Positions 3,121 through 52,724 of a stretch of 54,894 nucleotides of DNA are shown here, in pieces. The notes below the pieces were generated by a model, which did not search any database, was not told where the DNA came from, and worked only from the letters and a program-made list of their open reading frames with translations. Position 1 is the stretch's first letter. Every line of letters starts with the position of its first letter. The DNA lies in IMG/VR virus record IMGVR_UViG_3300047678_000831, positions 1 through 54,894 of that record; one strand, 5' to 3'. Source of the DNA: a virus. The position numbers were made by a program, and so were the translations under genes.

Positions 3121-3161
3121 CGGTAAGGCCCGGAGCTTGGCCGCGCCTGCCATGGGACAAC
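3121..3161 (+). promoter_or_regulatory. Late-type promoter, copy J (CGGTAAG-N28-GACAAC)
   Basis: CGGTAAG at 3121-3127, then 28 bases, then GACAAC at 3156-3161. The hexamer is the weakest of the set (no T at position 6). It precedes the 90-residue gene at 3226, which has its own AAGGAG site. Confidence 0.5.
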
Positions 3162-3225
3162 TGGCACTCCCCGCCAAGGCAAGGGGTTCAGCGGCCAGCC
3201 ACCGCGTTCAAGGAGTCCCCATCCC

Positions 3226-3498
3226 ATGAAGTCGCGTGCCCTCTCTCTCCTGTCCATGCTGTCGTTCCTGGTGCCGATCCTCTACGCGCTGTGGCATCCC
3301 GTGGTCCACCTGGCCAAGTTGGCCTATGGCACCGTGAAGCGGGTCTTTGTCGGCCCGGCGCCGGCGGCCGAGCGCGCCAACGCGGCCAGCGCCGCCCACC
3401 GATCTCGCTTCGCCGCCGCGGCCAGCTTCGTCCTGCGCATCGTCAAGCGCGACCGCCCGGTGGTGTACCCGCAGTGGTCCATGTGCCCCAGCACCTGA
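3226..3498 (+). CDS. Small protein with an N-terminal membrane segment
   Basis: A 90-residue protein with AAGGAG upstream of the ATG. Residues 5-25 (ALSLLSMLSFLVPILYALWHP) form a hydrophobic segment consistent with a signal anchor, followed by a basic, alanine-rich stretch. It sits alone between the divergent leftward operon and the baseplate operon and is preceded by a late-type promoter. No family recognised. Confidence 0.5.
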   Translation: MKSRALSLLSMLSFLVPILYALWHPVVHLAKLAYGTVKRVFVGPAPAAERANAASAAHRSRFAAAASFVLRIVKRDRPVVYPQWSMCPST

Positions 3499-3546
3499 AC
3501 CCCTGACGGCCTGATAGGCGCGGTGCAACGCCGCGCCCGCGCCCAG

Positions 3547-3587
3547 CGGTAAGAGCCCGCTGGGCGCCCCAAATGCGCCGGGATCAT
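3547..3587 (+). promoter_or_regulatory. Late-type promoter, copy A (CGGTAAG-N28-GATCAT)
   Basis: CGGTAAG at 3547-3553 and GATCAT at 3582-3587. The ATG of the baseplate gene follows after six bases with no Shine-Dalgarno sequence, so the transcript is probably leaderless. The upstream half lies in the loop side of a hairpin (GCCCAGCG and CGCTGGGC). Confidence 0.65.
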
Positions 3588-3593
3588 TTCTGC

Positions 3594-3887
3594 ATGGTCC
3601 TCACCGCGCAGTACGTGCAGCGAATGATTTCGCACTGGCTCAGGTGCCCGCCGAACGGGTATCTCGGCAGTAGCTATGGCTCGGGCGTTCAAGACCTGCT
3701 GCAGATGCCGTTCACGCAGGCCACCGCCGACGCGCTGGTGGCCAAGCTGCGCACCGACGTGCCGCCGCTGAACCTGCTGCCGGCCAGCGCCTTCAACGTG
3801 TGGTCGCGGCCGACCGGCGCAGACGGCGTCAACCTGTTCATCGAAGTCGCCGGCGTCGAGGTCTTCCTCGGCGAAGCCGCGACCTGA
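3594..3887 (+). CDS. Probable gp25-like baseplate wedge protein
   Basis: A 97-residue protein immediately before the J-like baseplate gene, the position held by gp25/gpW-type wedge proteins in contractile-tail phages. Its size fits, and it has a conserved-looking GYLGSSYGSGVQDLL block. Homology to gp25 is not clear from the sequence alone. I chose the ATG six bases after the promoter hexamer; an upstream in-frame ATG at 3573 lies inside the promoter. There is no Shine-Dalgarno sequence, consistent with a leaderless start. It is followed five bases later by the J-like gene. Confidence 0.45.
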   Translation: MVLTAQYVQRMISHWLRCPPNGYLGSSYGSGVQDLLQMPFTQATADALVAKLRTDVPPLNLLPASAFNVWSRPTGADGVNLFIEVAGVEVFLGEAAT

Positions 3888-3892
3888 GCGCG

Positions 3893-5332: not shown

Positions 5333-5344
5333 TGGAGCAGTGCA

Positions 5345-8934: not shown

Positions 8935-9194
8935 ACGCCATCAAGTTCTGGTTCTTCCAGGTGGCGCTGGCATTCGACCAGTTCTGCAACGCCGTCTTTG
9001 GTGGCTGGGCAGACGAGAGCATCAGCTCGCGTGCATGGCGGCTTTCGGCCGGCAGCCACGGTTGGGCCTGCCTGCGCGCATGCATCGACACCATCTTTCG
9101 GGCATTTGGGCAGCGTGACCACTGCTTCGAGGCATGGACCTCGGAGCGCATGCGTACGCAACTGCCGCCCGAGCTGCGCGCGGAGGCGACTTGA
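8931..9194 (+). CDS. Conserved small phage protein, unknown function
   Basis: An 87-residue protein starting at the ATG that overlaps the previous stop (ATGA). Residues 1-20 (NAIKFWFFQVALAFDQF) are amphipathic and aromatic, followed by a GGWADESISSRAWR block and a C-terminal LPPELR. I recall proteins of this type in other Burkholderiales phages near tail and lysis genes, always without a function. It may associate with membranes. Confidence 0.6.
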   Translation: MNAIKFWFFQVALAFDQFCNAVFGGWADESISSRAWRLSAGSHGWACLRACIDTIFRAFGQRDHCFEAWTSERMRTQLPPELRAEAT

Positions 9195-9881: not shown

Positions 9882-9922
9882 CGGTAAGCACGGCCGTCAG
9901 GCCTGGGATGGCCCCGAACAAT
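9882..9922 (+). promoter_or_regulatory. Late-type promoter, copy B (CGGTAAG-N28-AACAAT)
   Basis: CGGTAAG at 9882-9888 and AACAAT at 9917-9922. The fibre ATG follows seven bases later without a Shine-Dalgarno sequence. Confidence 0.65.
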
Positions 9923-9929
9923 TCCGGCC

Positions 9930-10814
9930 ATGCCCATTCGCAACCCGAAGATCACCGCCGCAGGCGTGGCGGCAGCCATTGCCGCTGATGGCCTGGGCGT
10001 CAGCCTGAAGATCACGCACATCACCGCCGGCGCGGGCGCCTACACCCCGACAGGCAGCGAGACGGCAATGGTCGACCTGCGCGAGGTGGCGCCGGTCCTG
10101 GTTGGTGCGCGTGTCGGCTCGCAGTTGACCCTCACGGCGACGCTGCTGTCTGCGCTGTACGCAGGTGCAGCCTACGACGTTGGAGAGATCGGCTTTTGGG
10201 CAGGCGATCCCAACGCAGGCGGCGTGCTGTTCGCGGTGGATTCCGCTCCGGGTCGCGCGTATCCGAAGCGAGGCGGCACCTACAGCTCGAACTTCACGGC
10301 CAACTACTCCCTGGCGCTCAGCGGCGTGCCGTCGGGCAGCGTTGACGTGATCTACGACCCGGATGCGGCCGTTGCCTTGATCGCGCTGGCAACGCACGTC
10401 GCGGCTGCCAATCCACATCCGCAGTACCTGCTCAAGGCAGGCGGCACGCTGACGGGGCCGCTGGTGCTGGCCGCGGCTGGATCGGCGCCGTTGCACCCGG
10501 CCACTGTGCAGCAACTGACAGACGCGCTGGCCGCGTTCGTGTCCATCGATTCCCAGACAATCAAGGTGGGGCCCAAGTACATCAAGTACGGGACCACGGG
10601 ATCGCTCGCCGCCGATACCGGCGCCCAGGCGGTGACTTTCACGAACCCGTTCCCGACCGCTTGCGCCGTCGTTCTTCTGACCGGCTCCACCAACAACGGG
10701 GTGGGCAGCAATGAGAACTACTCGGCTGGCATCTACGACAAGACCGCGGCCGGTTTCAAGATCAACAACGATTCGATGGCGGGCACCTTCGACTGGATCG
10801 CCATTGGGAGCTGA
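9930..10814 (+). CDS. Tail fibre/collar protein
   Basis: A 294-residue fibre. Residues 1-140 match the general pattern of the phage tail-collar fibre N-terminus (ITHITAGAGAYTPTGSETAM, then AAYDVGEIGFWAGDPN). A short HVAAANPHPQYLLKAGGTLTG segment, common to many fibres, follows at about 155. The C-terminal 80 residues (FTNPFPTACAVVLLTG ... GTFDWIAIGS) resemble the gp53-like fibre tip. It starts right after a late promoter hexamer and has no ribosome-binding site. Probably a second receptor-binding or side fibre. Confidence 0.75.
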   Translation: MPIRNPKITAAGVAAAIAADGLGVSLKITHITAGAGAYTPTGSETAMVDLREVAPVLVGARVGSQLTLTATLLSALYAGAAYDVGEIGFWAGDPNAGGVLFAVDSAPGRAYPKRGGTYSSNFTANYSLALSGVPSGSVDVIYDPDAAVALIALATHVAAANPHPQYLLKAGGTLTGPLVLAAAGSAPLHPATVQQLTDALAAFVSIDSQTIKVGPKYIKYGTTGSLAADTGAQAVTFTNPFPTACAVVLLTGSTNNGVGSNENYSAGIYDKTAAGFKINNDSMAGTFDWIAIGS

Positions 10815-14996: not shown

Positions 14997-15071
14997 TGGG
15001 CCAGCTCAGACCGGAGCGGCTATGTCGGAAAGCAGATGGCGGTGCACCGGCCCGTCGGTCTACAGTCCTTC

Positions 15072-15147
15072 TGTGACGTAGCGCAGTTGGTAGCGCACCG
15101 GGCTCATAACCCGGGGGTCGCCAGTTCGAGTCTGGCCGTCGCAACCA
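15072..15147 (+). tRNA. tRNA-Met (CAT), initiator-like
   Basis: The anticodon arm carries GGG:CCC at 29-31/39-41 with loop CTCATAA, the hallmark of initiator tRNAs, and the CCA is encoded. Position 1:72 is T:A, a weak pair rather than the classical C.A mismatch. The D-loop is elongator-like (AGTTGGTA). Confidence 0.85.
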
Positions 15148-15272
15148 AACACCACCACCATGAACGCCCTCCTGCTGCCCCGCCTCGACCTGGGATGTCC
15201 CAGGCGAGAGCGTGCGTGCGCACGAGGGCGGCGAAATCCGCTGCACACCACACGAACGGCGTAAGCCCTCAG
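15148..15272. other. Spacer between tRNA-Met and tRNA-Thr
   Basis: 125 bases with no convincing gene. The first 25 bases repeat the sequence found after the second Met tRNA at 16056. A hairpin CCTGGGA/TCCCAGG lies near 15188. Confidence 0.4.
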
Positions 15273-15349
15273 GCTGCCGTAGCTCAGTTGGTAGAGCGCT
15301 CCCCCTGTAAGGGAGATGTCGCGGGTTCGAGTCCATGCCGGTAGCACCA
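15273..15349 (+). tRNA. tRNA-Thr (TGT), atypical
   Basis: Acceptor GCTGCCG pairs with CGGTAGC, anticodon stem CTCCC/GGGAG is perfect, and the CCA is encoded. The loop CCTGTAA puts C instead of T at position 33, and the T-loop has one extra base with one stem mismatch. Identity is read from the stem-defined anticodon. Confidence 0.65.
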
Positions 15350-15358
15350 GATTTCCAC

Positions 15359-15434
15359 AGCCTTGTAGCTCAGTCGGTAGAGCAGCGCACTGTTAATGCG
15401 CCCGTCGCGGGTTCGATCCCTGCCTTGGCTGCCA
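15359..15434 (+). tRNA. tRNA-Asn (GTT)
   Basis: Loop CTGTTAA gives anticodon GTT, discriminator G, encoded CCA. The acceptor stem has two T-T mismatches (5:68 and 6:67). Confidence 0.8.
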
Positions 15435-15440
15435 CTTCAT

Positions 15441-15515
15441 GCCCCGTTGAACTTCGGGTGAGGTTCTCGGCCCTTCAAGCCGAAGAGGCGGGTTCGACTC
15501 CCGCACGGGGCACCA
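15441..15515 (+). tRNA. tRNA-Glu (TTC), atypical
   Basis: Acceptor GCCCCGT/ACGGGGC and anticodon stem TCGGC/GCCGA are perfect and CCA is encoded. Loop CCTTCAA has C at position 33, and the discriminator is A rather than G. Confidence 0.65.
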
Positions 15516-15523
15516 GCATCAGA

Positions 15524-15599
15524 GCGGGCGTAGCTCAACTGGCAGAGCGCCGTCCTTCCAAGTCGGAGGTTTCGGGTTCGAGCCCCGGGGCCCGCTCCA
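15524..15599 (+). tRNA. tRNA-Gly (TCC)
   Basis: Loop CTTCCAA gives anticodon TCC, discriminator T as expected for Gly, encoded CCA. One mismatch in the acceptor and one in the anticodon stem. Confidence 0.8.
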
Positions 15600-15605
15600 G
15601 ATCGC

Positions 15606-15682
15606 GCGTCTGTAGCTCAGTGGACCAGAGCGGCGCCCTCCGAAGGCGCAGGCCGTAGGTTCGATTCCTGCCAGACGCACCA
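15606..15682 (+). tRNA. tRNA-Arg (CCG)
   Basis: Anticodon stem GCGCC/GGCGC with loop CTCCGAA, acceptor GCGTCTG/CAGACGC, encoded CCA. Reads CGG. Confidence 0.85.
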
Positions 15683-15683
15683 G

Positions 15684-15759
15684 GCGTCGCTAGCTCAACG
15701 GACAGAGCGCCGGACTACGAATCCGGAGGTTGCAGGTTCGATCCCTGCGCGACGCGCCA
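15684..15759 (+). tRNA. tRNA-Arg (ACG)
   Basis: Anticodon stem CCGGA/TCCGG with loop CTACGAA, acceptor GCGTCGC/GCGACGC, encoded CCA. It starts one base after the preceding tRNA. Confidence 0.88.
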
Positions 15760-15763
15760 TCTT

Positions 15764-15840
15764 CACGGCGTGGCCGAGTGGTCCAAGGCCGCGGTTTGCA
15801 AGTCCGCTGTTCGCCGGTTCGAATCCGGCCGCCGTGTCCA
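15764..15840 (+). tRNA. tRNA-Cys (GCA)
   Basis: Acceptor CACGGCG/CGCCGTG, loop TTTGCAA-like with anticodon GCA, discriminator T as in Cys tRNAs, encoded CCA. Confidence 0.78.
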
Positions 15841-15847
15841 TCCTCCT

Positions 15848-15923
15848 GCCTCGTTAGCTCAGCGGACAGAGCAGCGGTCTTCTAAGCCGTGCGTCGGCGG
15901 TTCGAATCCGTCACGAGGCGCCA
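15848..15923 (+). tRNA. tRNA-Arg (TCT)
   Basis: Loop CTTCTAA gives anticodon TCT for the AGA/AGG codons that high-GC hosts use rarely. Acceptor GCCTCGT/ACGAGGC, encoded CCA. Confidence 0.85.
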
Positions 15924-15943
15924 GCCAAGCGTCAAGGAAGTCC

Positions 15944-15972
15944 TTGCGTTCGGTGTAAATAGTGTTTACATT
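15944..15972 (+). promoter_or_regulatory. Sigma70-type promoter inside the tRNA cluster
   Basis: TTGCGT, 17 bases, TACATT. Transcription would start at about 15979, the first base of the second Met tRNA. TGTAAA-N5-TTTACA (15954-15970) overlaps the -10 box, and CAAGGA-AG-TCCTTG (15933-15946) overlaps the -35, so the promoter may be regulated. Confidence 0.55.
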
Positions 15973-15978
15973 CACGTC

Positions 15979-16055
15979 CGTGACGTAGCGCAGCCTGGTA
16001 GCGCGCTGGGCTCATAACCCAGAGGTCGCCGGTTCGAAGCCGGCCGTCGCAACCA
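15979..16055 (+). tRNA. Initiator tRNA-fMet (CAT)
   Basis: Has the defining initiator features: a C1.A72 mismatch, three G:C pairs GGG/CCC in the anticodon stem around CTCATAA, a D-loop AGCCTGGTA, and the 3' end CGCAACCA as in Escherichia coli fMet tRNA. The 11:24 pair is C:G rather than the A:T of E. coli. It follows a dedicated promoter. Confidence 0.88.
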
Positions 16056-16097
16056 AACACCAAGCCATGAACGCCTCCCTGCCACGACCTTCTATCT

Positions 16098-16175
16098 CTG
16101 GGTGTAATGTCAGCCCGGTAGACGGCCGCCCTCGGAAGGCGGAGGCCGCTGGTTCAAATCCAGCCACCCAGACCA
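16098..16175 (+). tRNA. tRNA-Pro (CGG)
   Basis: Anticodon stem CCGCC/GGCGG with loop CTCGGAA, acceptor CTGGGTG/CACCCAG, encoded CCA. Confidence 0.85.
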
Positions 16176-16213
16176 GCCTATCGCGATTGAGTCGATCCCG
16201 ACTCTCGTATTGA

Positions 16214-16229
16214 CGCTCCGTTCGGAGCG
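16214..16229. repeat. Hairpin overlapping the 5' end of a tRNA
   Basis: CGCTCCG-TT-CGGAGCG is a perfect 7-base hairpin that includes the first six bases of the next tRNA. It could compete with the acceptor stem or mark a processing site. Confidence 0.4.
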
Positions 16230-16310
16230 GACGCCCATTTGGTAGGGCACGCGGCCGTAACCAGCAGGTCGGCTAGTTCCGTCGAGGTTCGACTCCTCGT
16301 CGCTCCACCA
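16224..16310 (+). tRNA. Possible tRNA-Tyr (GTA), degenerate
   Basis: Acceptor GGAGCGG with TCGCTCC, D-stem GCCC/GGGC and T-stem CGAGG/CCTCG are good, and a long variable region fits a class II tRNA such as Tyr. The anticodon arm is poor: three of five stem pairs, loop CCGTAAC with C at 33. The identity is uncertain and it may not be functional. Confidence 0.45.
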
Positions 16311-16317
16311 AGTGCAC

Positions 16318-16394
16318 GAGCCGTTGGCGAAATCGGCAAACGCGCCTTCCTCAAGAGAAGTCAACTCCAGGTTCGAGTCCTGGACGGCTCACCA
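16318..16394 (+). tRNA. tRNA-Leu (CAA)
   Basis: Acceptor GAGCCGT/ACGGCTC, loop CTCAAGA with anticodon CAA, Leu-type D-arm (TGGCG...ACGC), encoded CCA. The variable arm is unusually short for Leu. Confidence 0.75.
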
Positions 16395-16402
16395 AAATCA
16401 CA

Positions 16403-16479
16403 GCCCCGCTGGCGGAATTGGCATACGCGCAGGTCTCAGAAACCTGATTCTCCCGGTTCGAGTCCGGGGTGGGGCACCA
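16403..16479 (+). tRNA. tRNA-Leu (CAG)
   Basis: Anticodon stem CAGGT/ACCTG with loop CTCAGAA, acceptor GCCCCGC/GTGGGGC, encoded CCA. The variable arm is short here too. It reads CTG, usually the main Leu codon of high-GC genomes. Confidence 0.82.
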
Positions 16480-16485
16480 GACACT

Positions 16486-16577
16486 GGACGGTTGGCAGAG
16501 CGGTAATGCACCGGTCTTGAAAACCGAGATGGTCAGCGAACCTGGCCGCGTGGGTTCGATCCCTACACCGTCCGCCA
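16486..16577 (+). tRNA. tRNA-Ser (TGA)
   Basis: Class II tRNA of 92 bases. Acceptor GGACGGT/ACCGTCC, loop CTTGAAA with anticodon TGA, discriminator G, encoded CCA. Confidence 0.85.
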
Positions 16578-16583
16578 ACACAT

Positions 16584-16673
16584 GGGAAGTTGCCCGAGTG
16601 GCAAGGGGCCGGCTTGCTAAGCCGAGGCCGGTGCGCAAGCGCCGCGGAGGTTCGAACCCTCCACTTTCCGCCA
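16584..16673 (+). tRNA. tRNA-Ser (GCT)
   Basis: Class II tRNA. Acceptor GGGAAGT/ACTTTCC, anticodon stem CCGGC/GCCGA with loop TTGCTAA, discriminator G, encoded CCA. It ends 9 bases before a late promoter. Confidence 0.82.
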
Positions 16674-16682: not shown

Positions 16683-16723
16683 CGGTAAGCCGCGTCGAAC
16701 AGCAGGCGGCGCGTGGCGACACT
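16683..16723 (+). promoter_or_regulatory. Late-type promoter, copy C (CGGTAAG-N28-GACACT)
   Basis: CGGTAAG at 16683-16689 and GACACT at 16718-16723. The ATG follows after five bases with no Shine-Dalgarno sequence. It separates the tRNA genes from the large polyvalent genes. Confidence 0.7.
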
Positions 16724-16728: not shown

Positions 16729-19116
16729 ATGCCCGACGCCAAGCGCTTTGCTTCCGGTGTGCGCGCCCAGCTCGACGGCTGCGACAAGTTCGCTGCCGCG
16801 ATGACGGGCGCGCACTGCGCTGCCACGAGCACGTGGAACAGGCGCCGGCAGCCCACGCTGGCCCAGCAGATGGCCGGCAACTACGCCAAGGGCACCATCG
16901 GCTGGCACGGCCTGACGCTGCGCATCGAGAACCCGGCGCACACCGTGCGCGAGGGAACCGATCCCGACGGCAGGTCGTGGCGCAACGTCATGGCTGCGCA
17001 CTACGGCGAGATCCTTGGCACCGTCGGAGCGGACGGGGACGCGGTAGACATCTTCATCGGTCCGTTCCCTGAGTCGCCCCAGGCCTGGGTGCTCAACCAA
17101 CGCGACCACCTCGGCGGCTTCGACGAGCACAAGGTGCTGGTCGGGTTCCCCGATGCCGAGGCCGCGGTTAGTGCCTACCGCGCCAGCTACAGCCCCGGCT
17201 GGGATCGCTACGGCGAGCCCATCCCCATGACCGCGACGCAGCTCAAGCGCTGGCTGAAGAGCGGTGACACCACCATCGAACTGACCCCTGACGCTGTCCC
17301 TGCGGAGAACGACATGCCCAACTCAACCAACCTCGGCCGCGTCTTCTGGGATTCGGCCGCGATGCCGGCCTCCGGTCGCACGCTCGCGTCGGTGCTGTAC
17401 GAAATCCGTCTGGACGACGCCGCGGACGGCCTCACGCTCGACGCCATGACCATGGCCGACGTGGTCGAGGGCCAGGAACTGGTCGTGCTCGACGCGCTGG
17501 TCACGATTGCCGGCCGGCTCCAGCCCAAGATGCTGTCGCTGCAGCGAATCATGGAGGCAGCCGCGGGCGAGGTGAAGCCTGTCGCCATGCAGATCAGCGA
17601 GCCCATGCGCCGCTTCGGTGGCGCGCACGTGGCGGTGATCTACGAGCTGAGCGACGGGCAAACCATCACGGTGTGGTTCCACAACCCGGACAGCACGCCC
17701 AACATGCTCAGCCCAGCCGATGAGCTTGTGAGCTGGAAGTGGCAGCTCAACAAGAAGGACATCACCATCGTGGTGGCGCCGGAGTCGGGATCCGACCTGA
17801 ACCTGCGCGAGGTCGCGCGCCGGATCATGCGCCTGGCCGAGAAGAACTCGGCAGCCTTCGCGAAGGCCAACGCAAAGCGCGCCGAGACCATGGCCGAGCT
17901 GACGGCCCTCAAAGGCAAGCTGGCCGAGCGCCAGGAGGTGCTGCGCGGCCTGCTGGTGCAGGTGGAGGCCGAGCGCGCGGCAGTGGCCGACCGGGCGGCG
18001 CTGGCGGCCAATCCGCTCTGGAAGCGAGGCAACTTCGATCCGACGACCGCGGCGAACTACGCGCTGATCCATGCGGCCGGCGAGGAAGCGCTGCTGTACT
18101 GGCAGGACGAACTGGACGACATGTTCAGCCGCCGGATCGTCGCGGTGCGCAACGCACTGCGCGCGCTCGGCTGGGAGGCCGAGGTCGGCGCGCCTATGGG
18201 AAAGGGCAACTACTTCGCAGTCACCAGCATGACGCACATCGGCTCGGGCCGCAACGTGGTGGCCGTGTCGTGGGAGATCATGGGGGTGACCGGGTTCTTC
18301 ATGAGCGACGACCTGTCGCGCACTCCTGAGGAACTGGCCGCCGGCATCGACTTGGGGCTGATCAGCTTCCTGGCCCAGAAGAGCGCGCAGGAAGCGGCGG
18401 CAGCAGCCGTCCAGCCGGACCCGCAGCCGGCCGCGCAACCGGAGCCCCAAGTGGTGCCCGCGCCGGTGGTGGACGAGCCCATCGTCGAACCGGCGCCGGC
18501 GGCAGCCGCGGCCAACGTGCCGGAGCCTGATGGCTTCGCCGACTGGATTGCCGAGGTCAAGCACGTCCTCGTCGACCTCGGCAAGACCGAAGACGAGGCC
18601 ACCGCGATGATCGCCGCGGCCGATGCCAACGACCTCAAGAACAAGGCTGCGTCAAGCTACGAGCCGACTACCGCGGTGTATGTGCTCTGGGGCCTGGACG
18701 TGCCGGGCTACCTGCTGGCCAAGCAGCAGGCCGAAGAAGCAGCGGCTGCCGCGGCAGTGGAGTCGGCGAAACAGGCCGCGGAGGCGGAAGCGGCGCGTGT
18801 GCAGGCGGAGGCCGATGCGGCTGCCGCGGCTCAGGCTGCCGCTGCGCTCGAAGCGCCCACGGTCGTCGAAGTGCCGGCTGTGGCGGAGCCTGAGCCTTCA
18901 GTGGTCCCGCCGGTGGCGGTGGAATCGGCCGAGACGCAGTTCCTGCGCGAGGTCAGCGCCGGCGCGCACGACGCATTGGAGGCCGCTGACCTGCTGGACA
19001 AGATCGAGGCCACGGTGGCGAAGCTGCAAGCCGACGGCCTGCTGGCTGGCGACATTGACACGCTGGCCGGCCAGGCCATCGACCACTGGGCCGAATTGGA
19101 GGCCGCGGAGGCCTGA
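16729..19116 (+). CDS. Polyvalent anti-restriction protein, InPase plus DarA-like
   Basis: A 795-residue multidomain protein. Residues about 50-150 match the phage inorganic-pyrophosphatase-like polyvalent domain (GLTLRIENPAHTVREGTD, then AHYGEILGTVGADGDAVDIF). Residues about 285-420 match the C-terminal domain of P1 DarA (VIYELSDGQTITVWFHN, then WKWQLNKKDITIVVAPESG). A further domain at about 425-545 is unknown. Residues 550-640 are Pro/Ala-rich, followed by an alanine-rich coiled coil (about 660-710) and a short helical domain. In P1, DarA is packaged and injected to block type I restriction. The gene is likely leaderless and first in its unit. Confidence 0.75.
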   Translation: MPDAKRFASGVRAQLDGCDKFAAAMTGAHCAATSTWNRRRQPTLAQQMAGNYAKGTIGWHGLTLRIENPAHTVREGTDPDGRSWRNVMAAHYGEILGTVGADGDAVDIFIGPFPESPQAWVLNQRDHLGGFDEHKVLVGFPDAEAAVSAYRASYSPGWDRYGEPIPMTATQLKRWLKSGDTTIELTPDAVPAENDMPNSTNLGRVFWDSAAMPASGRTLASVLYEIRLDDAADGLTLDAMTMADVVEGQELVVLDALVTIAGRLQPKMLSLQRIMEAAAGEVKPVAMQISEPMRRFGGAHVAVIYELSDGQTITVWFHNPDSTPNMLSPADELVSWKWQLNKKDITIVVAPESGSDLNLREVARRIMRLAEKNSAAFAKANAKRAETMAELTALKGKLAERQEVLRGLLVQVEAERAAVADRAALAANPLWKRGNFDPTTAANYALIHAAGEEALLYWQDELDDMFSRRIVAVRNALRALGWEAEVGAPMGKGNYFAVTSMTHIGSGRNVVAVSWEIMGVTGFFMSDDLSRTPEELAAGIDLGLISFLAQKSAQEAAAAAVQPDPQPAAQPEPQVVPAPVVDEPIVEPAPAAAAANVPEPDGFADWIAEVKHVLVDLGKTEDEATAMIAAADANDLKNKAASSYEPTTAVYVLWGLDVPGYLLAKQQAEEAAAAAAVESAKQAAEAEAARVQAEADAAAAAQAAAALEAPTVVEVPAVAEPEPSVVPPVAVESAETQFLREVSAGAHDALEAADLLDKIEATVAKLQADGLLAGDIDTLAGQAIDHWAELEAAEA

Positions 19117-21268: not shown

Positions 21269-21309
21269 CGGTAACGCCGGCGGATCGCGGCATCCGCTGT
21301 CAGGACACT
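21269..21309 (+). promoter_or_regulatory. Late-type promoter, copy H (CGGTAAC-N28-GACACT)
   Basis: CGGTAAC at 21269-21275 and GACACT at 21304-21309. The methyltransferase-helicase gene follows 64 bases later with AGAGGAAA before its ATG, so this transcript has a leader. Confidence 0.6.
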
Positions 21310-21373: not shown

Positions 21374-24300
21374 ATGTCCGCACTGAAGAGCGAGGCCGGC
21401 GGCCCGCGTGTCTCCACCAACACGCTGGTCGCACTCGATGCGGTCGCCATCGCGCCCACCGAGTTGTCCCCGCTGCAGCGACTGAAGCTGACGCGCGACC
21501 TGTTGGAGGTACGCCTGGCGCTGAGCAAGTCGCCGCCCCTCATGGAGCGCCTGAAACTCGCACGTCGACTGTTGGAACTGCGCGTGGCGCTGGGCCAGGC
21601 CGTACCGAACCAGGTGGCGGCCAACGACATAGAGCCGCGGCCGGAGGTGTCGGCTGAGCGGACCAGCACCGCGCAGTTCTTCGACTTCGACGACGACCGC
21701 AAACCGGCCCAGCGCAAGCGCGACAACGCAGCGGCCATGGCCTTGATCAAGGCGGTCGATGCCGGCGAGATCGGCGAGCTGACCGACGATCAGAAGGCGG
21801 TGCTGGCCAAGTACAGCGGTACCGGCGGCAACCTGGTGGGCGCCGACGGCAAGAAGGGCAGCGCCTACGAGTACTACACCCCGAAGCCGATAGCCGAGGG
21901 TGCTTGGGCTCTGCTGCGCGATATGGGCTTCGAGGGCGGCAACGTGCTCGACCCGTGCAGCGCGACAGGCGTCTTCGGCGCCACCGCTCCGGTGAACGCC
22001 GCCGTCGATGCGGTCGAGCTGAATGAGACCTCCGGCCGGGTCAACCAACTGGTGAACGACGGTCCTGGATACAAGACCACCATCGCGCCATTCGAGCAGG
22101 TGGCCGCGGCGACCCCGGACGAGACCTACGACGCGGTCATCTCGAACGTGCCTTTCGGCGAGGTGTCTGACCGCGGCGGCAACCAGTTCAAGGACACGCG
22201 CTACCGCGACGAGCCGATCCAGAACTACTTCATCCTGCGCGGCCTGGAGAAGCTCCGCCCGGGCGGCCTCGCGGCCTTCATCACGCCGCCGCGGTGCATG
22301 TCCGGCAAGGGCGGCAAGGAAGAGTCCCTGCGCCAGCGCACCAGCTACCTTGCCGAGTTCATGGGCGCCTACAGGCTGCCCAACAAGGTCTTCGGGACCG
22401 CTGCCGCGGACACGATGACGGACCTGATCGTCTTCCGCAAGTTCAAGCGGCCGGTGCTGGACAAGATCGCTGAGTTGCGGGAGCAGAACCCCCAGGCGCT
22501 GATCGACGCGAAGGTCATCTGGCAGAAGTTCATCGGCGGCACTTACTTCGCCGGCGAGGGCCTGCGCTTCGTTCTGGGTACGCCGGCGCGAGCGAAAGGC
22601 CGCTTCGGCGAGCGTGATGTACTGAACTCCGAGCTCAGCGTCGCGGAGATCGCCAAGCTGCTGCATCGGTTCCCCGAATCGCGGATCGACTGGGCGGCGC
22701 TCGATGCAGCGGAGACCGTGCCCACGATCTACCGCGACGGCGACACCATCGCGCACGCTGGCCAGACGCTTCAGATGGTCGGTGGCCGCTGGCGCGTGCT
22801 GCAGTCCAGTGCCGACGACGACTCAGCGGCCAGGCTGTCCGAGACCATCGCCAAGCTCAGCACACCGCTGGGCGCGGTCAATGCGGGCATCCTGTACCGC
22901 GAGGCCCAGCAGGCCCACCAAGCCATGGTGGACAGCGCGCAGGCGCTGGACGTGCCCGACTGGCTGCGCGGCCTCCTGGCCCAGCTTCAGCGGGTGCAGG
23001 CCGGCGCGCGCGAGTCGGCGTGGATGACCTCGATTGTTGGCCTGGCCATCGACCAAGCCCGCGACGAGCGGCAGGCCGAGGAGTCGGGCTTCAACTACTT
23101 GGAGGGCTACCCGGCCCTGTCCGAGGCCATGATGCGTGTGGCCGCGGACGCCAAGAAGCCGCTCGCAGGGCTGCCGGCGTCGGTCAAGTCGGCGATCCGA
23201 AACATCGGCGTCCACTACAGCCACGCAGGCGGCTATTCGGCGGTGTGGCGCGGCGATGTGGCAGTGGCCGCGGACACCCGCACGGAGGCGCAGAAGTTCG
23301 AGGCCGAGCGCTATCAGTCCGGCGGCGGGGCGTTCATTCCGCTGGCCAGCGCCAAGGCGGTGTACGGCGCGGACTTCGATTCGCTGGCGGGCGATGACTG
23401 GTGCGTCAGCGCGGACGGCCAGAGCGTGGCCAAGGCGGACGACTACTACGTCGGCAACTACGCGGACTTCCTGGAGCGCATCAACGCCGACATCGCCGGC
23501 GCCACCGACGACATGGTGCGGTCCAAGCTGCTGCGCCAGAAGCAGGCGGCCGAGTCGCGCCTGTTGCGCGGCGATCCGTCGGCGATGCACTTCACGCTGT
23601 TTACCCCGTTCGTGACGATGGAAGAGCGCGCGGAGTTCCTGCGCCGCTTCGTCGATCCCCGGTTCGCGGTGGCGTTCGACGAGAAGACCGGCGCCCCGAT
23701 CATCACCATCGAGTTCGTCGGCGGCCCGAAGACGGAGCGCGAGAAGTTGCTCCGCCGGTTCGCGCTTTACCTCAGCGGCAACCGGCTCACCCTCGGTGGC
23801 ATCGACGTTCGCAACGAACAGGAGGCCATCAAGTCGCTGCGCGCCATCGCCTCGACCGCGGCGGCGCAGTTCAACTCCTGGGCGAAGGCGAACCCGATCA
23901 TCATGGGGCGCCTGTCCGACCTGGCCAACGATCCGCGGCGCATCTACTTCCGCCAGGTCGATGACGACTCGCCGCTGGACATCCCGGGTCTCAACCCGGC
24001 GTGGAAGACCCACGGCTACCAAGCGGCCTGGGTTCGCAAGATGGGCCGCGAATTCGGCGGCATCAACGGCGACGATGTCGGCTTGGGCAAGACCTCGCAG
24101 GGCCTGATCGCTGCCCAGCATGCGCACGCCATCGGCACCAAGCAGAAGACGATGATCGTGGTCCCGAACTCCGTGCTGTCGAACTGGCGCAAGGAGGCGG
24201 CCCGGGTCTACAGCAGTACCGACGACTGCCTCTACGTCGGCTTGAAAGCCGACAAGGCCGGGGAACTCAAGACCGATCCGTCTTCCTACGATGCGGACCT

Positions 24301-31611: not shown

Positions 31612-31652
31612 CGGAAAGTGCCCCCGCCTGGTGTCAGATCGGCCCCGACACT
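31612..31652 (+). promoter_or_regulatory. Late-type promoter, copy I (CGGAAAG-N28-GACACT)
   Basis: CGGAAAG at 31612-31618 and GACACT at 31647-31652. The upstream box has one change, but the hexamer is the best form. The portal ATG follows six bases later without a Shine-Dalgarno sequence. Confidence 0.6.
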
Positions 31653-36295: not shown

Positions 36296-36336
36296 CGGTA
36301 AGGCGGTCCTGATCCCCAAAAACCGGCTCTGACACT
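36296..36336 (+). promoter_or_regulatory. Late-type promoter, copy D (CGGTAAG-N28-GACACT)
   Basis: CGGTAAG at 36296-36302 and GACACT at 36331-36336. Followed by a leader with the hairpin at 36338 and an AGGAG site before the ATG at 36386. Confidence 0.7.
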
Positions 36337-36385: not shown

Positions 36386-36877
36386 ATGGGTGTCGTCAAC
36401 ACCGCTGCATATCACGAGTCGAACTACCGCCTCGTCCAGGCATTGGGCGCAAAGCTCACTGCCGGGAACTTCACGTTCGAGCCGGTTGGATTCGGCGGGA
36501 TGTACCTGCTGATCAAGCAGTTCCCGCTTCCATTCCTGAGCGGTGGCGACGCCATCGAGAGTCCCGAGCCTGGCGGCGGGTTCGGGTATGTGCAGGGACC
36601 GATCCGCACCGCCTTTGAAGGTCAAGTTGGGCTACAGGAAACCGAGTCGGGAATCGCCCGGCAGTTCCTGGTCGATGTCATTCGAGGCGGCGGCTATTTC
36701 GATGCCCGCATCTACGAAGGCACGCCGGGCAAGAACACCGGTTCCTACAGCATCGAACAGGCCTTCATGAAGATCGAGCCGCCCGATATCGACTGGGAGA
36801 ACCGAACCCAGCTTCTGCTCCTGACCGGGAGCATCAATTACCGGTTCTTCGGCAAAACCTACCCCGGCAACTCCTGA
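36386..36877 (+). CDS. Probable major tail tube protein
   Basis: A 163-residue beta-rich protein with strong expression signals (late promoter, AGGAG site). It lacks long helices and ends in RTQLLLLTGSINYRFFG, a pattern of paired strands common to tube proteins; GGGYFDARIYEG and YSIEQAFMKIEPPDI add more strands. Its size is right for a tube subunit. It does not lie beside the sheath gene as tube genes usually do, so the call is tentative. Confidence 0.45.
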   Translation: MGVVNTAAYHESNYRLVQALGAKLTAGNFTFEPVGFGGMYLLIKQFPLPFLSGGDAIESPEPGGGFGYVQGPIRTAFEGQVGLQETESGIARQFLVDVIRGGGYFDARIYEGTPGKNTGSYSIEQAFMKIEPPDIDWENRTQLLLLTGSINYRFFGKTYPGNS

Positions 36878-45533: not shown

Positions 45534-45539
45534 CGCGTC

Positions 45540-45580
45540 GGTAAGCCTGCCGATAGGCCCGCAAACCGGGCCAGAAACTG
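45540..45580 (+). promoter_or_regulatory. Late-type promoter, copy E (CGGTAAG-N28-GAAACT)
   Basis: CGGTAAG at 45540-45546 and GAAACT at 45575-45580. The leader contains a CCGTC/GACGG hairpin (45582-45601) directly before the ATG at 45604. Confidence 0.6.
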
Positions 45581-45603: not shown

Positions 45604-46080
45604 ATGAAACTCCTGATCGACTACGACGGCCTTGCCGGCAACGCCGCGAGTGCCATGCGCCAGGCAACGCAGCTCTTCGAGCGCGCTGGTCTCCATGTGA
45701 TCGACGTTTCCAGCGGTGGCCGAACCATGCGGTTGGCTGGCATGGCCTACCGCGAAGCGACGCTGGTGTTTGCGGACAGCCAGCGCGTCACGCTGCGCAT
45801 CAAGTCCACCGGCGACGTGTACGAGGCACGCATCAACGGCAAGGTGGTCCCCATCAAGGACCAGGACGACCCGGCCAAGGCCGTGGCCGAGCTGGTGGCC
45901 CTGCTGGACGCCGGCCGCACCAAGTTCCAACGCCGCATTGCGGCCCTGCGGATGCAGCCCCCCGCTGGCATCAAGACCGCGGCCCCACGAGTGCTGGAGG
46001 CCGTGAAGGCACAGCTCGAACAGGTGGAGACGGAGATCACCGCGGCCACCGAAGAACTGGCCTCGCTACAGGCCGCGTGA
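45604..46080 (+). CDS. Small protein upstream of capsid, distantly DarA-like
   Basis: A 158-residue protein. Residues about 50-105 (AYREATLVFADSQRVTLRIK, then INGKVVPIKDQDDPAKAVAE, then KFQRRIAALR) have the strand-turn-helix layout of the DarA C-terminal domain seen at 17630-17900, though identity is low. The C-terminal 50 residues form a coiled coil. Encoded between the spike and capsid genes under its own late promoter. It could be an internal head protein or a scaffold. If the DarA resemblance holds, an injected anti-restriction protein is possible. Confidence 0.45.
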   Translation: MKLLIDYDGLAGNAASAMRQATQLFERAGLHVIDVSSGGRTMRLAGMAYREATLVFADSQRVTLRIKSTGDVYEARINGKVVPIKDQDDPAKAVAELVALLDAGRTKFQRRIAALRMQPPAGIKTAAPRVLEAVKAQLEQVETEITAATEELASLQAA

Positions 46081-46085: not shown

Positions 46086-46126
46086 CGGTAAGTCCGTTCA
46101 GACCCCCGAAAACACACTCCAAAGAT
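46086..46126 (+). promoter_or_regulatory. Late-type promoter, copy F (CGGTAAG-N28-AAAGAT)
   Basis: CGGTAAG at 46086-46092 and AAAGAT at 46121-46126. Drives the major capsid gene with a 68-base leader and an AAGGAAA site. Confidence 0.6.
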
Positions 46127-46194: not shown

Positions 46195-47853
46195 ATGGCG
46201 GACGCCCAACAGATCATCACGCAGCCGATTGCCACGAAGGTGTTCTTCGATGCCGTCGGCGACGCAGCCGGCGGTGTCGGCAAGCAAGTCACCGCTGAGG
46301 TGGCCCAGGCCGTGCTGAAGGACAACAAGACGCCGGTGCCCGCTGTCGTCGAGAGCCTCCTGAGCAAGTTCAAGCCGGAGCATCACGGCCTGCTGCTGGA
46401 CGCCGTGCGCGACGGCAGTTCCGAGTTCGAGCGCCTGCACGGCCGCGCGCCCGACCCGTCGCTGGTCGAGTTCGCGGTGTTTCAAGCGGACCGCGGCGTC
46501 ACCAAGCTGTCCGACCTGGGCCTGGCGCGCCTCGACAGCGCGACGAACAACCACCACGACCAATTGAGCCTGGTGCCTGCGACGCCGATCACGGCGATCA
46601 TGGCCCAGTTCAGCGAGGCCATCCCGTTCGCAGCGTACCTGCCGGCCGACCTGAAGAACAACGAGGCCCGCCTGGCCATCATGGACAACAAGGCGGACTC
46701 GGACTACGGCGACTACGCGAAGGGCGACAGCCTGAGCGGCATCGCCGGCGGCCAGAACTACCTGGACGCCGAGCGCCTGATCACGGTTGCCACGACGGCC
46801 AACTCCGGCGCCGGCCCGTTCCCGTTCGCCATCACCGTCAAGAACGATGGCAGCGGCGGCACGGTCCCGGTGCTGCGCGGGCGCACGGTGGTGATCGTGA
46901 ACGGCATCGCCCGCGCATTCGAGTCGCGCGTGACGGCCTACGGCAGTGGTTCGAGCACCTTCTCGGGCTCCGTGAAGATCGGCGCGACGACCTACACCCT
47001 GGGCGGCTCGATCAACACCGACACCGGCGTGGGTTCGATCACGACCAGCGCCGCGTGGCCCGGTGGCGCGACGCTGCAGGTTTCCGCCTGTATCGATTTC
47101 GAGAAGGCGCCCCAGCTCATCCCCTACATCGGCACCGAGGTGACGCCCTACTCGCTGTTCGCTCACCCGAACCGCGGTGCGCTGAAGTCGACCATCGACG
47201 CGATGACGCAGATGCAGAACGAGCTGGCGCTGGATCCGCGCGGCCAGGCGATGTTGTCGCTGCGCGCGCAGTACAACCAGGAGCGCCACTACCGCGTGCT
47301 GGGCAAGATGAAGGCCATCGGGGCTGGCATCACCGGCACCTGGGACTACGACTACGCCAACCAGATCGAGCAGAAGGACTTCGGCCAACTCTGGCTGAAC
47401 CTGATGCCGGTGCTGGCAAACGCCTCGCAGCGCATGGCCGAGTCCACCATCGACCACGGCATCGACACGCTGTACGTCGGCAAGAAGCTGATGTCCCGCG
47501 TTCGCGGCCTGCCCAGCTCGATCTGGCAGCCCTCCGGCCTGACCGACCGCCCCGGCGTCTATCGCCTGGGTCGCCTGTTCAACCTGTTCGACGTGTACTA
47601 CACGCCGAAGGGCATCACCGAGACCAGCACGGCCTCCGAAATCATCGCCATCGGCCGCGGCACCCAGGTGGCGCGCAGCCCCATCGTGCTGGGCGACGCT
47701 GTGCCACCGATCTTCCTGCCGCTGGCCATGGACCACGCGCTGGAAACCAAGGACGGCTGGTACACGCGCAACTTCACCGAGGTGAACCCGCACGAGCCGA
47801 GCGCGATGGGTGCCGCGCTGATCAGCGTGACCAACATCGACGCGAACAACTGA
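46195..47853 (+). CDS. Major capsid protein
   Basis: A 552-residue protein with its own late promoter and a strong ribosome-binding site. The N-terminal 125 residues are helical and may be removed by the protease. From about 130 there is a typical HK97-like pattern: TPITAIMAQFSEAIPFAAYLP, acidic DNKADSDYGDYAKGDS, and a C-terminal PNRGALKSTIDAMTQMQNEL spine-like helix followed by AQYNQERHYRVLGKMKAIG. A beta-rich insertion (about 215-310, with VPVLRGRTVVIVNGIARAF) looks like an added surface domain. Function assigned from size, context and fold pattern. Confidence 0.72.
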   Translation: MADAQQIITQPIATKVFFDAVGDAAGGVGKQVTAEVAQAVLKDNKTPVPAVVESLLSKFKPEHHGLLLDAVRDGSSEFERLHGRAPDPSLVEFAVFQADRGVTKLSDLGLARLDSATNNHHDQLSLVPATPITAIMAQFSEAIPFAAYLPADLKNNEARLAIMDNKADSDYGDYAKGDSLSGIAGGQNYLDAERLITVATTANSGAGPFPFAITVKNDGSGGTVPVLRGRTVVIVNGIARAFESRVTAYGSGSSTFSGSVKIGATTYTLGGSINTDTGVGSITTSAAWPGGATLQVSACIDFEKAPQLIPYIGTEVTPYSLFAHPNRGALKSTIDAMTQMQNELALDPRGQAMLSLRAQYNQERHYRVLGKMKAIGAGITGTWDYDYANQIEQKDFGQLWLNLMPVLANASQRMAESTIDHGIDTLYVGKKLMSRVRGLPSSIWQPSGLTDRPGVYRLGRLFNLFDVYYTPKGITETSTASEIIAIGRGTQVARSPIVLGDAVPPIFLPLAMDHALETKDGWYTRNFTEVNPHEPSAMGAALISVTNIDANN

Positions 47854-47884
47854 TCGGTCATTCGCGACGGCCAGAGGGAATCCC

Positions 47885-48451: not shown

Positions 48452-48469
48452 CCCACCGGAAGGCCTGTC

Positions 48470-50089: not shown

Positions 50090-50099
50090 TCGGGACACC

Positions 50100-50813
50100 A
50101 TGGACCACAACAGCATCTTCGCCCGTCCGTCCGTCATGGCGCTGCTGCAGCGCGCCAGCACCGTGCCGGAAGGTCATCGTCTGGACGACGCCAGCACTGC
50201 CATGGTGGAAAACACCGGCTCGGCTTACGCCATGCAGGACATCAGCCTGCGCGCCGCCGCGGCCGTCCAGGAATGGGCGGAAACCAAGGAATCCGACCTC
50301 GGCGAAGGCGAGGGCATGGGAGACCGCCTGCTGGCCATGCTGGTGGGCATCGCCGACGAAGACCAGGATGGCGAGCTGGACGAAGACGAACAGGCCGTGG
50401 CAGAAGTCGCCATGAACGAGGCCTGGGCCTACATGGAAAGCCTCGGAGCTGCAGAGGCCGACCTGGAATCGCTGTTCAACAGCGAGGTTGCGGCCGAGTC
50501 GAATACCGCCGCCGGCCGCCTGGCCGAGTTCCTGGCCGACGCGCTGCCCAGCGACGAGGACGCCAGCTTGGACGAACTGGACGCCTTCGCCTTCGGCGCC
50601 GACCAGTCCGGGATCTTCGATGCGGTCTACAAGAAGAAGCTGGTGGTCCGTGGCGCGAAGAAGGTCCGCGTCATGAAGCGCGTTTCCGGCGTGGTTCGTC
50701 TGTCGGGGCCCCAGAAGGTTGCGCTGCGCAAGGCGCGCAACAAGTCGCACAGCGCCAAGGCCACCATGCGTCGCGCCAAGTCCATGCGCGTGCGCGAGGC
50801 GGCCAACCTCTAA
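50100..50813 (+). CDS. Virion or assembly protein with an EF-hand and basic tail
   Basis: A 237-residue protein. Residues about 86-97 (DEDQDGELDEDE) are a textbook EF-hand loop: Asp at 1, 3, 5, Gly at 6, Leu at 8, Asp at 9, Glu at 12. Helices flank it on both sides (GDRLLAMLVGIA and QAVAEVAMNEAW). The middle is acidic. The C-terminal 60 residues are strongly basic (KKKLVVRGAKKVRVMKRVSG), perhaps binding DNA or the acidic sheath. Directly after the sheath gene. Bacteriophage EF-hands are uncommon; calcium binding is a prediction. Confidence 0.6.
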   Translation: MDHNSIFARPSVMALLQRASTVPEGHRLDDASTAMVENTGSAYAMQDISLRAAAAVQEWAETKESDLGEGEGMGDRLLAMLVGIADEDQDGELDEDEQAVAEVAMNEAWAYMESLGAAEADLESLFNSEVAAESNTAAGRLAEFLADALPSDEDASLDELDAFAFGADQSGIFDAVYKKKLVVRGAKKVRVMKRVSGVVRLSGPQKVALRKARNKSHSAKATMRRAKSMRVREAANL

Positions 50814-50832
50814 ACCGCTGGAGTAGCTGCAG

Positions 50833-51723
50833 GTGCCAGGGCCCGGCGGAGGCCAACTCACGCCCAACCGCACCGGCTTGACCCTCGGCGCGGCCAAGCC
50901 GAAGCAGAAGGCGCCGGTGCAGCGACCGGCCCTGTCGTCCAAGTGGACGGGGCTGTCCAAGCACCTGCTGGCAGAGATCTACCCCGTCAAGCCGGATGGC
51001 AGCCCCGACCCTGACGGCGGCCCTTCCGTCATCGCGCCGCCCACCGACGGCATGCTGGAAGCGACGGCCAACTGGAGCTCGCCCTTCGAGAACAGCGGGA
51101 CCGAGACGAAGGCCCCGGCCATCATGGCCATGCTGCAGAGCGGCGTGCTGCAGTCCTACTCGCAGTCTCTCGCAAAGGTGCAGGGCGCCGGTCCGGTCAC
51201 CAATGCGCTGGCCGAACTGGCGCGAAGCGCCGCGATTTCGGTCACAGATGCCAGCCGGGCAGCGCAGTCTCGGACGGGCATGACCAAGCTGAACAGCACG
51301 CAGATTTTCTCCGGCGCGCCGCCGGTGCGCATGCCGATGACGCTGCACTTCCGCGCCTTCCGCGACCCGGGACGTGAGGTGCGCGCGCCGGTCGACCAGC
51401 TCTGGGCCTGGTTCCTGGCGAAGATGCTTGCCACCGATGGGGCACTGGTGAGCGCGGCCAAGTCCGTGTCCTCCGGGCAGTTCCTGACAGCATTGCTCCC
51501 GTCCGAGGCGCCCCAAATGGTCGGGCTGCGGTTCGGCGGCTTCACGTTCGCGCCGCTGGTGATCGAGTCGATCAGCCAGCCCATCACCGTGCCCCGCACC
51601 AGCAAGGGCGGCGAGATCTACACGGCCGTCAACATCGTCTTGGCCACGCTCACGGCGCTGGACGCCGGCGACTGGCGCCGGGCCCGGCAGGGCAAACCCA
51701 TCGCGTTGTTCAACAACCAATGA
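50833..51723 (+). CDS. Tail/baseplate structural protein
   Basis: A 296-residue protein starting at GTG. The N-terminal 40 residues are polar and Pro-rich. Residues about 80-150 are helical (APAIMAMLQSGVLQSYSQSL). The C-terminal 60 residues (FGGFTFAPLVIESISQPIT, EIYTAVNIVLATLTAL) form strands like those of tail proteins that end tubes or initiate the baseplate. Coupled to the next gene by ATGA. No firm family. Confidence 0.5.
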   Translation: MPGPGGGQLTPNRTGLTLGAAKPKQKAPVQRPALSSKWTGLSKHLLAEIYPVKPDGSPDPDGGPSVIAPPTDGMLEATANWSSPFENSGTETKAPAIMAMLQSGVLQSYSQSLAKVQGAGPVTNALAELARSAAISVTDASRAAQSRTGMTKLNSTQIFSGAPPVRMPMTLHFRAFRDPGREVRAPVDQLWAWFLAKMLATDGALVSAAKSVSSGQFLTALLPSEAPQMVGLRFGGFTFAPLVIESISQPITVPRTSKGGEIYTAVNIVLATLTALDAGDWRRARQGKPIALFNNQ

Positions 51724-52514
51724 TCCACTTCCCGCTTCTTCGAACGGCGCGCCTGGACGTGGCCATGCGCGAGCTCACGCTGAAGGAAGGCATCGCGCTC
51801 GCGGCCATCCCGCCCCACCAGCACGAGGCCGGAGTCACGGCGCTGCTGGCCCAGGTCGTCAAGGCCTCCGGGGCCAATGCCGACCCCGAACTGTGGACGG
51901 TGCAGGAGCGCTACTTCGCGGTCGCGCACTACATCGCCTGCACCTCGGAAGAGGGCGGAAACTTCGAAGTGGCCAATGGCCGCTTCCTGGACTACCTTTG
52001 CGCGGACATCGACTCGGCGCCCGTGGTGGTAGATGCCGGCCAGGCCTGCGGCGACACGTGGACGGCCAAGCAACTGCTGGGCTGCGAAGCCGGCGCCATG
52101 GAAGGGTTCTGCAGGAGCCGGCTGGACTGGTTGACCGCGGACATCGCCGCGCGCATGTCGGTGGTCGGCCAGGACGAGGGCCGGCCCGATCCGCGGGCGC
52201 GGCCGGGCGACTACGCCACCTGGCTGCAGGATCGCTCGGCCGTGATCCAGCAGATGGCCGAGAGTGAGTTCGAGGCCCTGTTCATGGCGTACCGGCGCGG
52301 GCTGGACGGCCTGCATCATCTGTTCGCGCTCGAACAGGACGACGCGGGGTTTGTGGTCATGCCGACCAAGGAGGGCGGGGCCGCATTGGCACCCGCCCGA
52401 TTTCCTGTTGATGCCTGCCTTGGCGTCTTCTCGCGCCTCCTGGGCTCGGGAGGTGATGGAGCAGGTGTCCTACCTGGCCCTGCACTGCAACACCCCGCTG
52501 CCGGCGGCGCTTGA
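51720..52514 (+). CDS. Putative tail assembly protein
   Basis: A 264-residue protein whose ATG overlaps the previous stop. Residues about 15-35 (MRELTLKEGIALAAIPPHQHE) and TVQERYFAVAHYIACTSEEGG resemble a conserved phage tail-region family of unknown function. The last 40 residues are low in complexity (GSGGDGAGVLPGPALQHPAAGG) and look out of frame, while the overlapping +1 frame at 52411 looks more natural. A frameshift product could join the two. Confidence 0.5.
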   Translation: MIHFPLLRTARLDVAMRELTLKEGIALAAIPPHQHEAGVTALLAQVVKASGANADPELWTVQERYFAVAHYIACTSEEGGNFEVANGRFLDYLCADIDSAPVVVDAGQACGDTWTAKQLLGCEAGAMEGFCRSRLDWLTADIAARMSVVGQDEGRPDPRARPGDYATWLQDRSAVIQQMAESEFEALFMAYRRGLDGLHHLFALEQDDAGFVVMPTKEGGAALAPARFPVDACLGVFSRLLGSGGDGAGVLPGPALQHPAAGGA

Positions 52515-52689
52515 TCTGCCGATCAGCATTGCGCGCGCGTTCTTCGACTCGAAGATGCACACGCAGCATGTGAAGAACATGGAGGGCCGGCAGCAACTCA
52601 CCATGGCTGTGATCAACCGCATCGACGGCGTCATCAAGGCCATCGGAGGGCTGGGCAAGGTGCTGGCGTCCATCGTCAACCGCCGGTAA
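52411..52689 (+). CDS. Overlapping tail-region protein, +1 frame
   Basis: A 92-residue protein starting at an ATG inside the 3' end of the preceding gene, in the +1 frame, with 104 bases of overlap. It has a natural helical composition (REVMEQVSYLALHC, then NRIDGVIKAIGGLGKVLASI). The frame stays open upstream of the ATG, so it could be expressed as a fusion by programmed frameshift, as in many tail assembly chaperone pairs, or it may be a separate gene. It ends just before the lysis promoter. Confidence 0.5.
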   Translation: MPALASSRASWAREVMEQVSYLALHCNTPLPAALDLPISIARAFFDSKMHTQHVKNMEGRQQLTMAVINRIDGVIKAIGGLGKVLASIVNRR

Positions 52690-52724
52690 GCCAGGCGGAG
52701 ACCGCGAGTAGCGGCCCGAACAAT
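52684..52724 (+). promoter_or_regulatory. Late-type promoter, copy G (CGGTAAG-N28-AACAAT)
   Basis: CGGTAAG at 52684-52690 overlaps the stop of the preceding gene; AACAAT at 52719-52724. Drives the lysis genes. Confidence 0.65.

Follow-up and report, generated by a model that had tools for sequence, protein, structure and literature searches.

Putative activator-dependent late promoters with a single box at about −44 in a P1-like phage and its relatives

The virus record IMGVR_UViG_3300047678_000831 (positions 1 to 54,894; this whole stretch of 54,894 bp is referred to here as the window) carries ten copies of a two-part element, in which a box, CGGTAAG or one change from it, is followed by a gap of exactly 28 nucleotides (nt) and then by a hexamer close to GACACT. 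What are these sites, and which protein reads them? Judged from sequence, they are most probably the late promoters of a P1-like temperate myophage, at which host RNA polymerase carrying the main sigma factor would be assisted by a phage activator bound at about −44. The ten sites, and one weak extra candidate, are as follows (ORF, open reading frame; InPase, inorganic pyrophosphatase).

Late promoter 1, 3121–3161, + strand: box CGGTAAG at 3121–3127, hexamer GACAAC at 3156–3161 (no T at position 6); ahead of ORF 3226–3498.
Late promoter 2, 3547–3587, + strand: box at 3547–3553, −10 GATCAT at 3582–3587; ATG at 3594, 6 nt past the hexamer, predicted leaderless.
Late promoter 3, 9882–9922, + strand: box at 9882–9888, −10 AACAAT at 9917–9922; tail fibre gene with ATG at 9930 (7 nt), predicted leaderless.
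Late promoter 4, 16683–16723, + strand: box at 16683–16689, −10 GACACT at 16718–16723; InPase/DarA_N polyvalent gene with ATG at 16729 (5 nt), predicted leaderless.
Late promoter 5, 21269–21309, + strand: box CGGTAAC at 21269–21275, −10 GACACT at 21304–21309; DarB-like (SNF2 plus N6-methylase) gene at 21374.
Late promoter 6, 31612–31652, + strand: box CGGAAAG at 31612–31618, −10 GACACT at 31647–31652; portal gene with ATG at 31659 (6 nt), predicted leaderless.
Late promoter 7, 36296–36336, + strand: box at 36296–36302, −10 GACACT at 36331–36336; tail tube gene at 36386.
Late promoter 8, 45539–45579, + strand: box at 45539–45545, −10 GAAACT at 45574–45579; Hdf-like gene at 45604; kept in the related loci L127, L020 and L099.
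Late promoter 9, 46086–46126, + strand: box at 46086–46092, −10 AAAGAT at 46121–46126; phrog_1014 (major capsid homologue) at 46195; kept in L127, L020 and L099.
Late promoter 10, 52684–52724, + strand: box at 52684–52690, −10 AACAAT at 52719–52724; ORF at 52754, then the endolysin gene at 53167.
Weak extra candidate, 15026–15066, + strand: CGGAAAG at 15026–15032, 28 nt, TACAGT at 15061–15066; 5 nt before tRNA-Met at 15072.

A preliminary description of this DNA had reported the same ten pairs with their exact 28 nt gap, and all were located; nine of its coordinates were right, while the site placed at 45540 begins one base earlier, at 45539. A C precedes GG in every box, the second base of the hexamer is A in all ten copies and the sixth is T in nine, the exception being site 3121. 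All ten point rightward, ahead of late genes, and none lies on the opposite strand.

The pair, its spacing and its strand bias are not random. CGG[TA]AA with A at +36 and T at +40 was found at 10 of 22 boxes on the sense strand of the window, a count that includes the candidate at 15026 and excludes site 3121, and at none of nine on the antisense strand. Seven exact matches were observed, against 0.017 in first-order Markov shuffles. When every 6-mer was scanned through the window at spacings of 28–45 nt, CGGTAA at d = 36 ranked first (8 of 11, p = 1.6e-13), d being the distance from the box to the A of the TANAAT-like −10. When any nine sites were used to build a position matrix, the one left out scored above all of the roughly 110,000 non-site positions on both strands, the weakest site reaching 18.5 bits and the best non-site 9.7 bits.

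The rightward genes of the window (66.6% G+C) match proteins of the P1 family, among them homologues of the portal (phrog_1497), tail sheath (phrog_1036), capsid (phrog_1014) and Hdf (phrog_1620) proteins, as well as PmgG, PmgB-like proteins, tail tube, baseplate and endolysin. The polyvalent genes encode a DarA_N/inorganic pyrophosphatase protein and a DarB-like methylase/SNF2 protein of 2206 aa, so that the P1-type sheath, capsid, portal, DarA/DarB and Hdf genes that mark a P1-like phage are all present. The sheath found relatives by tblastn in Xanthomonas phage Rb1, the Burkholderia vietnamiensis plasmid pBVIE05, an Ideonella plasmid and Pseudomonas plasmids (34–45% identity), and records of the P1 group at about 25% identity. 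The record holds no terminase gene and for that reason is taken as a fragment; the P1 genome is 94.8 kb long. By its gene content the window is a piece of a P1-like myophage. Megablast of positions 1–25000 against phage records gave no match. Viral contigs searched with the capsid protein as a single sequence yielded no relative either, so alignments of the sheath and capsid proteins from plasmid and phage relatives were required.

In the three nearest relatives (L127, L020 and L099) the pair lies before the Hdf and capsid genes with equal spacing or 1 nt more, and the intervening sequence is different. When about 150 viral-contig loci were pooled with the named relatives, the spacings measured from CGGWAA boxes peaked sharply at d = 37 (209 unique sites, about 56 expected), and did so only on the sense strand; positions 36, 39 and 40, which had played no part in the selection, read T, A and A and so complete the form TANAAT. 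A seedless scan was run on the window and on 27 relatives that are large or nearly complete. It recovered a box in the window itself and in 24 of the 27, on one strand only and with d = 36–38. The letters of the box are specific to lineages (CGGTAAG, CGGAAAA, TAGGAAAA, TCGGAAAG or YGCAAACC) and drift from one lineage to another at constant position. The seedless scan gave the following distribution.

CGGTAAG: the window and G001; G014, with d = 37.
CGGAAAA: Rb1, Ideonella, G009, G016, G020, G023 and G029.
TAGGAAAA: G004, G006, G007 and G032; pBVIE05 has AGGAAAA at d = 38.
TCGGAAAG: P. psychrotolerans, G025, G026 and G034.
CGCAAACC or TGCAAACC: KF715C, DR133, G039, G041, G043 and, weakly, G038.
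AGGAAAA: G021, at few sites.

Each phage's own version of the promoter precedes 101 of 168 orthologues of the window's promoter-bearing genes, compared with 9 of 239 orthologues of operon-internal genes. Read together with these relatives, the sites in the window are a local instance of a predicted late-promoter architecture common to the clade. One distant 78 kb relative, G014 (L219–L221 and L259), which alone among the large relatives has this box, combines the CGGTAA box of the window, with 1 nt more spacing, with a divergent form of the XRE protein described below; its box may reflect either convergence or retention.

The hexamer, with A at position 2 and T at position 6 in a TANAAT-like −10, has the form of a sigma70-type element, and this form is constant across lineages. 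With the hexamer placed at −12 to −7, the box of the window spans roughly −47 to −41, and that of most relatives is shifted upstream by one base. The box itself is 7–8 bp long and asymmetric, and group-wise logos show no dyad or second half-site in it. At 229 sites the leader was measured from the hexamer to the nearest downstream start codon that opens an ORF of 60 codons or more. Start codons lie 5–7 nt past the −10 at 48 sites, 8–14 nt at 5 and 24–36 nt at 105, whereas boxes without a −10 have a start codon in the 5–7 nt class in 26 of 418 cases. This class is gene-specific: it accounts for 14 of 17 DarA-like genes, 10 of 15 genes corresponding to the one at 3594 (p3594; ORF 3594–3887, matching phrog_4683) and 6 of 19 portal genes, but for none of 19 capsid genes, whose leaders mostly measure 51–68 nt, and none of 18 tail tube genes. 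Such start codons would imply a transcription start 6–8 nt past the −10; the gene-by-gene constancy of the class is otherwise hard to explain. On this reading several late transcripts would have no leader, most typically the one for the DarA-like protein; in the window, the predicted class comprises sites 3547, 9882, 16683 and 31612. The DarA-like gene at 16729–19116 is a single ORF joining an inorganic pyrophosphatase domain to DarA_N, and its homologues are the most consistently predicted-leaderless late genes of the clade. Automated annotation is likely to misplace starts of this kind: the longest-ORF ATG at 3573 sits within the promoter spacer, and the in-frame ATG at 3594 is likely to be the true one.

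The late-promoter interpretation of the preliminary description, a −10 without a −35 and an upstream box pointing to an activator, is therefore backed by conservation at orthologues, by the distances from −10 to start codon and by the fixed spacing across the clade. Transcription is predicted to start at these sites and to use host sigma70. Host RNA polymerase with its main sigma factor would recognise the TANAAT-like −10 with no −35, and a phage-encoded activator would bind the asymmetric box and bring polymerase to the promoter. Because one activator would recruit polymerase at all the boxes, the virion, anti-restriction (polyvalent) and lysis operons would start together late in infection.

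Phage P1 provides the closest comparison. It has 11 known late promoters, with a −22 box described as a 9-bp inverted repeat and the Lpa site (PMC10695390). As in the window, homologous late genes (portal, capsid, sheath, dar, hdf and lysis) are spread over many operons, each with its own late promoter; the −10 is of sigma70 type with no −35, and the number of promoters is similar (11 in P1, ten in the window). In P1 a phage activator is also encoded just before the packaging genes, the place taken in most relatives by the candidate XRE gene. The control element is different. Alignment of the 11 annotated P1 late promoters gave a AAGTGACTT-like box lying 4 nt before most −10s (centre −22) and no CGGTAAG-like element at −44, where the window and its relatives have CGGTAAG or a variant. 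AAGTGACTT-N5-ANNNT with one mismatch occurs nine times in P1 and not at all in Rb1 or the Ideonella plasmid. Lpa (phrog_1704), the activator of the P1 late promoters, was found in none of 49 relatives; as a positive control it was found in all six enterobacterial P1-like records (P1, P7, a Serratia plasmid, two E. fergusonii plasmids and an E. coli plasmid), and none of these six carries the XRE protein. The window's promoters appear to work like those of P1, through an activator and a −10, yet by box and activator they fall outside the Lpa class.

Which protein would bind the box? The window's own activator gene is not seen, as the fragment lacks the terminase locus, and the candidate comes from relatives. 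Of 50 records, 46 encode an XRE-type helix-turn-helix protein, and only P1 and three small fragments lack it; all 26 records that bear a terminase have it. Among the proteins of Rb1 and the Ideonella plasmid it is the sole one present in 26 of 26 that is neither a packaging protein nor the product of a conserved late-region gene; most of the conserved late-region genes of the terminase-bearing relatives are also in the window. In most records its gene precedes the terminase gene on the same strand, usually within 1–6 kb of it, and this is the place of lpa before pacA in P1. The protein has a Pfam match to HTH_31, and a profile search of the PDB gave an XRE regulator of ICEBs1 as its sole match. 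An AlphaFold model (mean pLDDT 81.6, pTM 0.42) shows an N-terminal domain of five helices (8–84), followed by long helices at 93–154 and 164–197. Box type and XRE recognition helix agree group by group (raw r = 0.62), but the correlation with sheath phylogeny is higher (0.69) and nothing is left of the signal in a partial Mantel test that controls for sheath phylogeny (r = 0.02, p = 0.38), so that shared ancestry accounts for it. Covariation was accordingly rejected as proof of the activator, and for the same reason the XRE protein is put forward as the likely activator of the late promoters and not as a demonstrated one.

Besides the lack of covariation beyond phylogeny, several observations weigh against this picture. 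XRE proteins usually bind dyads, and a box without a second half-site sits poorly with that. In the lineage of W03, G025 and G026, the XRE gene does not adjoin the terminase gene. Two of the 27 relatives in the seedless scan (G019 and G028) have no clear box, recovery was sparse in G021 and weak in G038, and in the window site 3121 has the weakest hexamer of the ten, a poor −10.

The same promoters might instead be read by another phage protein, such as a conserved late-region protein, or by a host factor, with the XRE protein serving as a repressor or packaging regulator. The missing covariation would fit this, as would the several small proteins of no known function that are also present in 24–26 of the 26 relatives. 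The seven universal unknowns that were scanned have no DNA-binding domain in Pfam, however, and the XRE protein has one; a host factor would leave the lineage-wise change of box letters unexplained; and the XRE protein occurs in every terminase-bearing relative, in most at the position of lpa, and is mutually exclusive with Lpa. Another binder is possible on these grounds but rather unlikely.

The preliminary description had allowed either an activator or a phage sigma factor, and here the first is favoured. A phage-encoded sigma factor reading box and hexamer together would, on the surface, account for two parts at a fixed distance and for the missing −35. Promoters of the sigma70 family have a spacing of 16–19 nt, which the gap of 28–29 nt exceeds, and the −10 stays host-like (TANAAT) in all lineages while the letters of the box change. 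No sigma-factor family was found among the scanned proteins, which included only part of the ORFs of the relatives. A phage sigma factor is very improbable. Less probable still is a site unrelated to transcription, i.e., a repeated protein-binding or packaging/segregation site (parS-like, uptake-like or an RNA element): a short motif repeated over the genome might suggest one, but the orientation is fixed, the copies lie upstream of operon heads, and a −10-like hexamer follows at fixed distance with start codons 5–7 nt downstream. A chance or compositional artefact, for which only the small number of copies in one window could speak, is refuted by the strand asymmetry and the recurrence across phages, and its probability is negligible.

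An upstream activator at the late promoters has parallels outside P1. In phages P2, P4 and 186 (Ogr/Delta), a phage protein acting at an upstream site likewise switches on several late operons. The P2 site lies near −55. It is a dyad, TGT-N12-ACA, bound by a zinc-finger protein (PMC3931495), whereas the element described here is a single asymmetric box of 7–8 bp, and the TGT-N12-ACA dyad is absent from the group-wise logos of the clade's promoters. Activators of the lambda CII/CI type share the XRE/lambda-repressor-like fold of the candidate, and their sites lie just upstream of or over the −35 region (near −35/−42); these are repeats or dyads at one or a few promoters, in contrast to a half-site-like box at several to about 17 late promoters per phage. 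SspA is cited as a co-activator of the P1 late promoters in a passage of PMC2763202, where Francisella PigR, acting with RNA polymerase-bound MglA-SspA, is the proposed analogue of P1 Lpa, i.e., a DNA-bound activator that touches SspA on the polymerase. The likeness to PigR and Lpa is in this proposed role of a DNA-bound activator; at window-type promoters the SspA part carries no evidence either way.

No description of the −44 promoter form was found in the open-licence papers searched. The claim that no phage promoter of this form had been described can be kept to that extent and needs qualifying, as the phage is P1-like and the P1 late promoters are already known, although box and activator differ. 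The best reading is an apparently unreported class of activator-dependent sigma70 late promoter. On a balance tilted slightly in its favour, P1-like phages would run one late regulon by two unrelated and mutually exclusive switches, Lpa at −22 in enterobacterial phages and the XRE protein at a single −44 box in phages of Xanthomonas, Burkholderiales and Pseudomonas. The whole set of about ten promoters would then have changed control together, on one occasion or more, and the letters of the box would afterwards have changed several times with its position held, the DarA-like, portal and p3594 mRNAs staying leaderless. For P1, a textbook phage, Lpa and SspA are all that is known of the late switch; a second architecture in the same late regulon would mean that about ten promoters were rewired together, and would supply an activator that can be tested. 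It would also allow late transcription units to be read from sequence in many P1-like phage-plasmids of environmental bacteria that are uncultured. A second feature, and an unexpected one, is that leaderless late mRNAs are predicted for the same genes from phage to phage.

Between the late operons, the window carries an array of 15 tRNA genes (15072–16673). None of ten loci checked in relatives has a comparable array, Rb1 having one tRNA-Phe. The pair at 15026, just ahead of the array, scores 9.3 bits in the matrix scan, near chance level; with that score and no comparable array in the checked relatives, it was rejected as an eleventh promoter and stays a candidate.

Three further features were seen. 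In Rb1, repeated CAATACCTGCGGGTAAA-like sequences around early-region genes (L008/L009) resemble repressor operators and are distinct from the late box. Near the tRNA-Phe of Rb1 (L008, 16020–16696), ARAGORN calls two overlapping genes resembling transfer-messenger RNA. In the window, a leftward gene (1929–2678, − strand) encodes a protein of the SOS-response-associated peptidase (SRAP) family.

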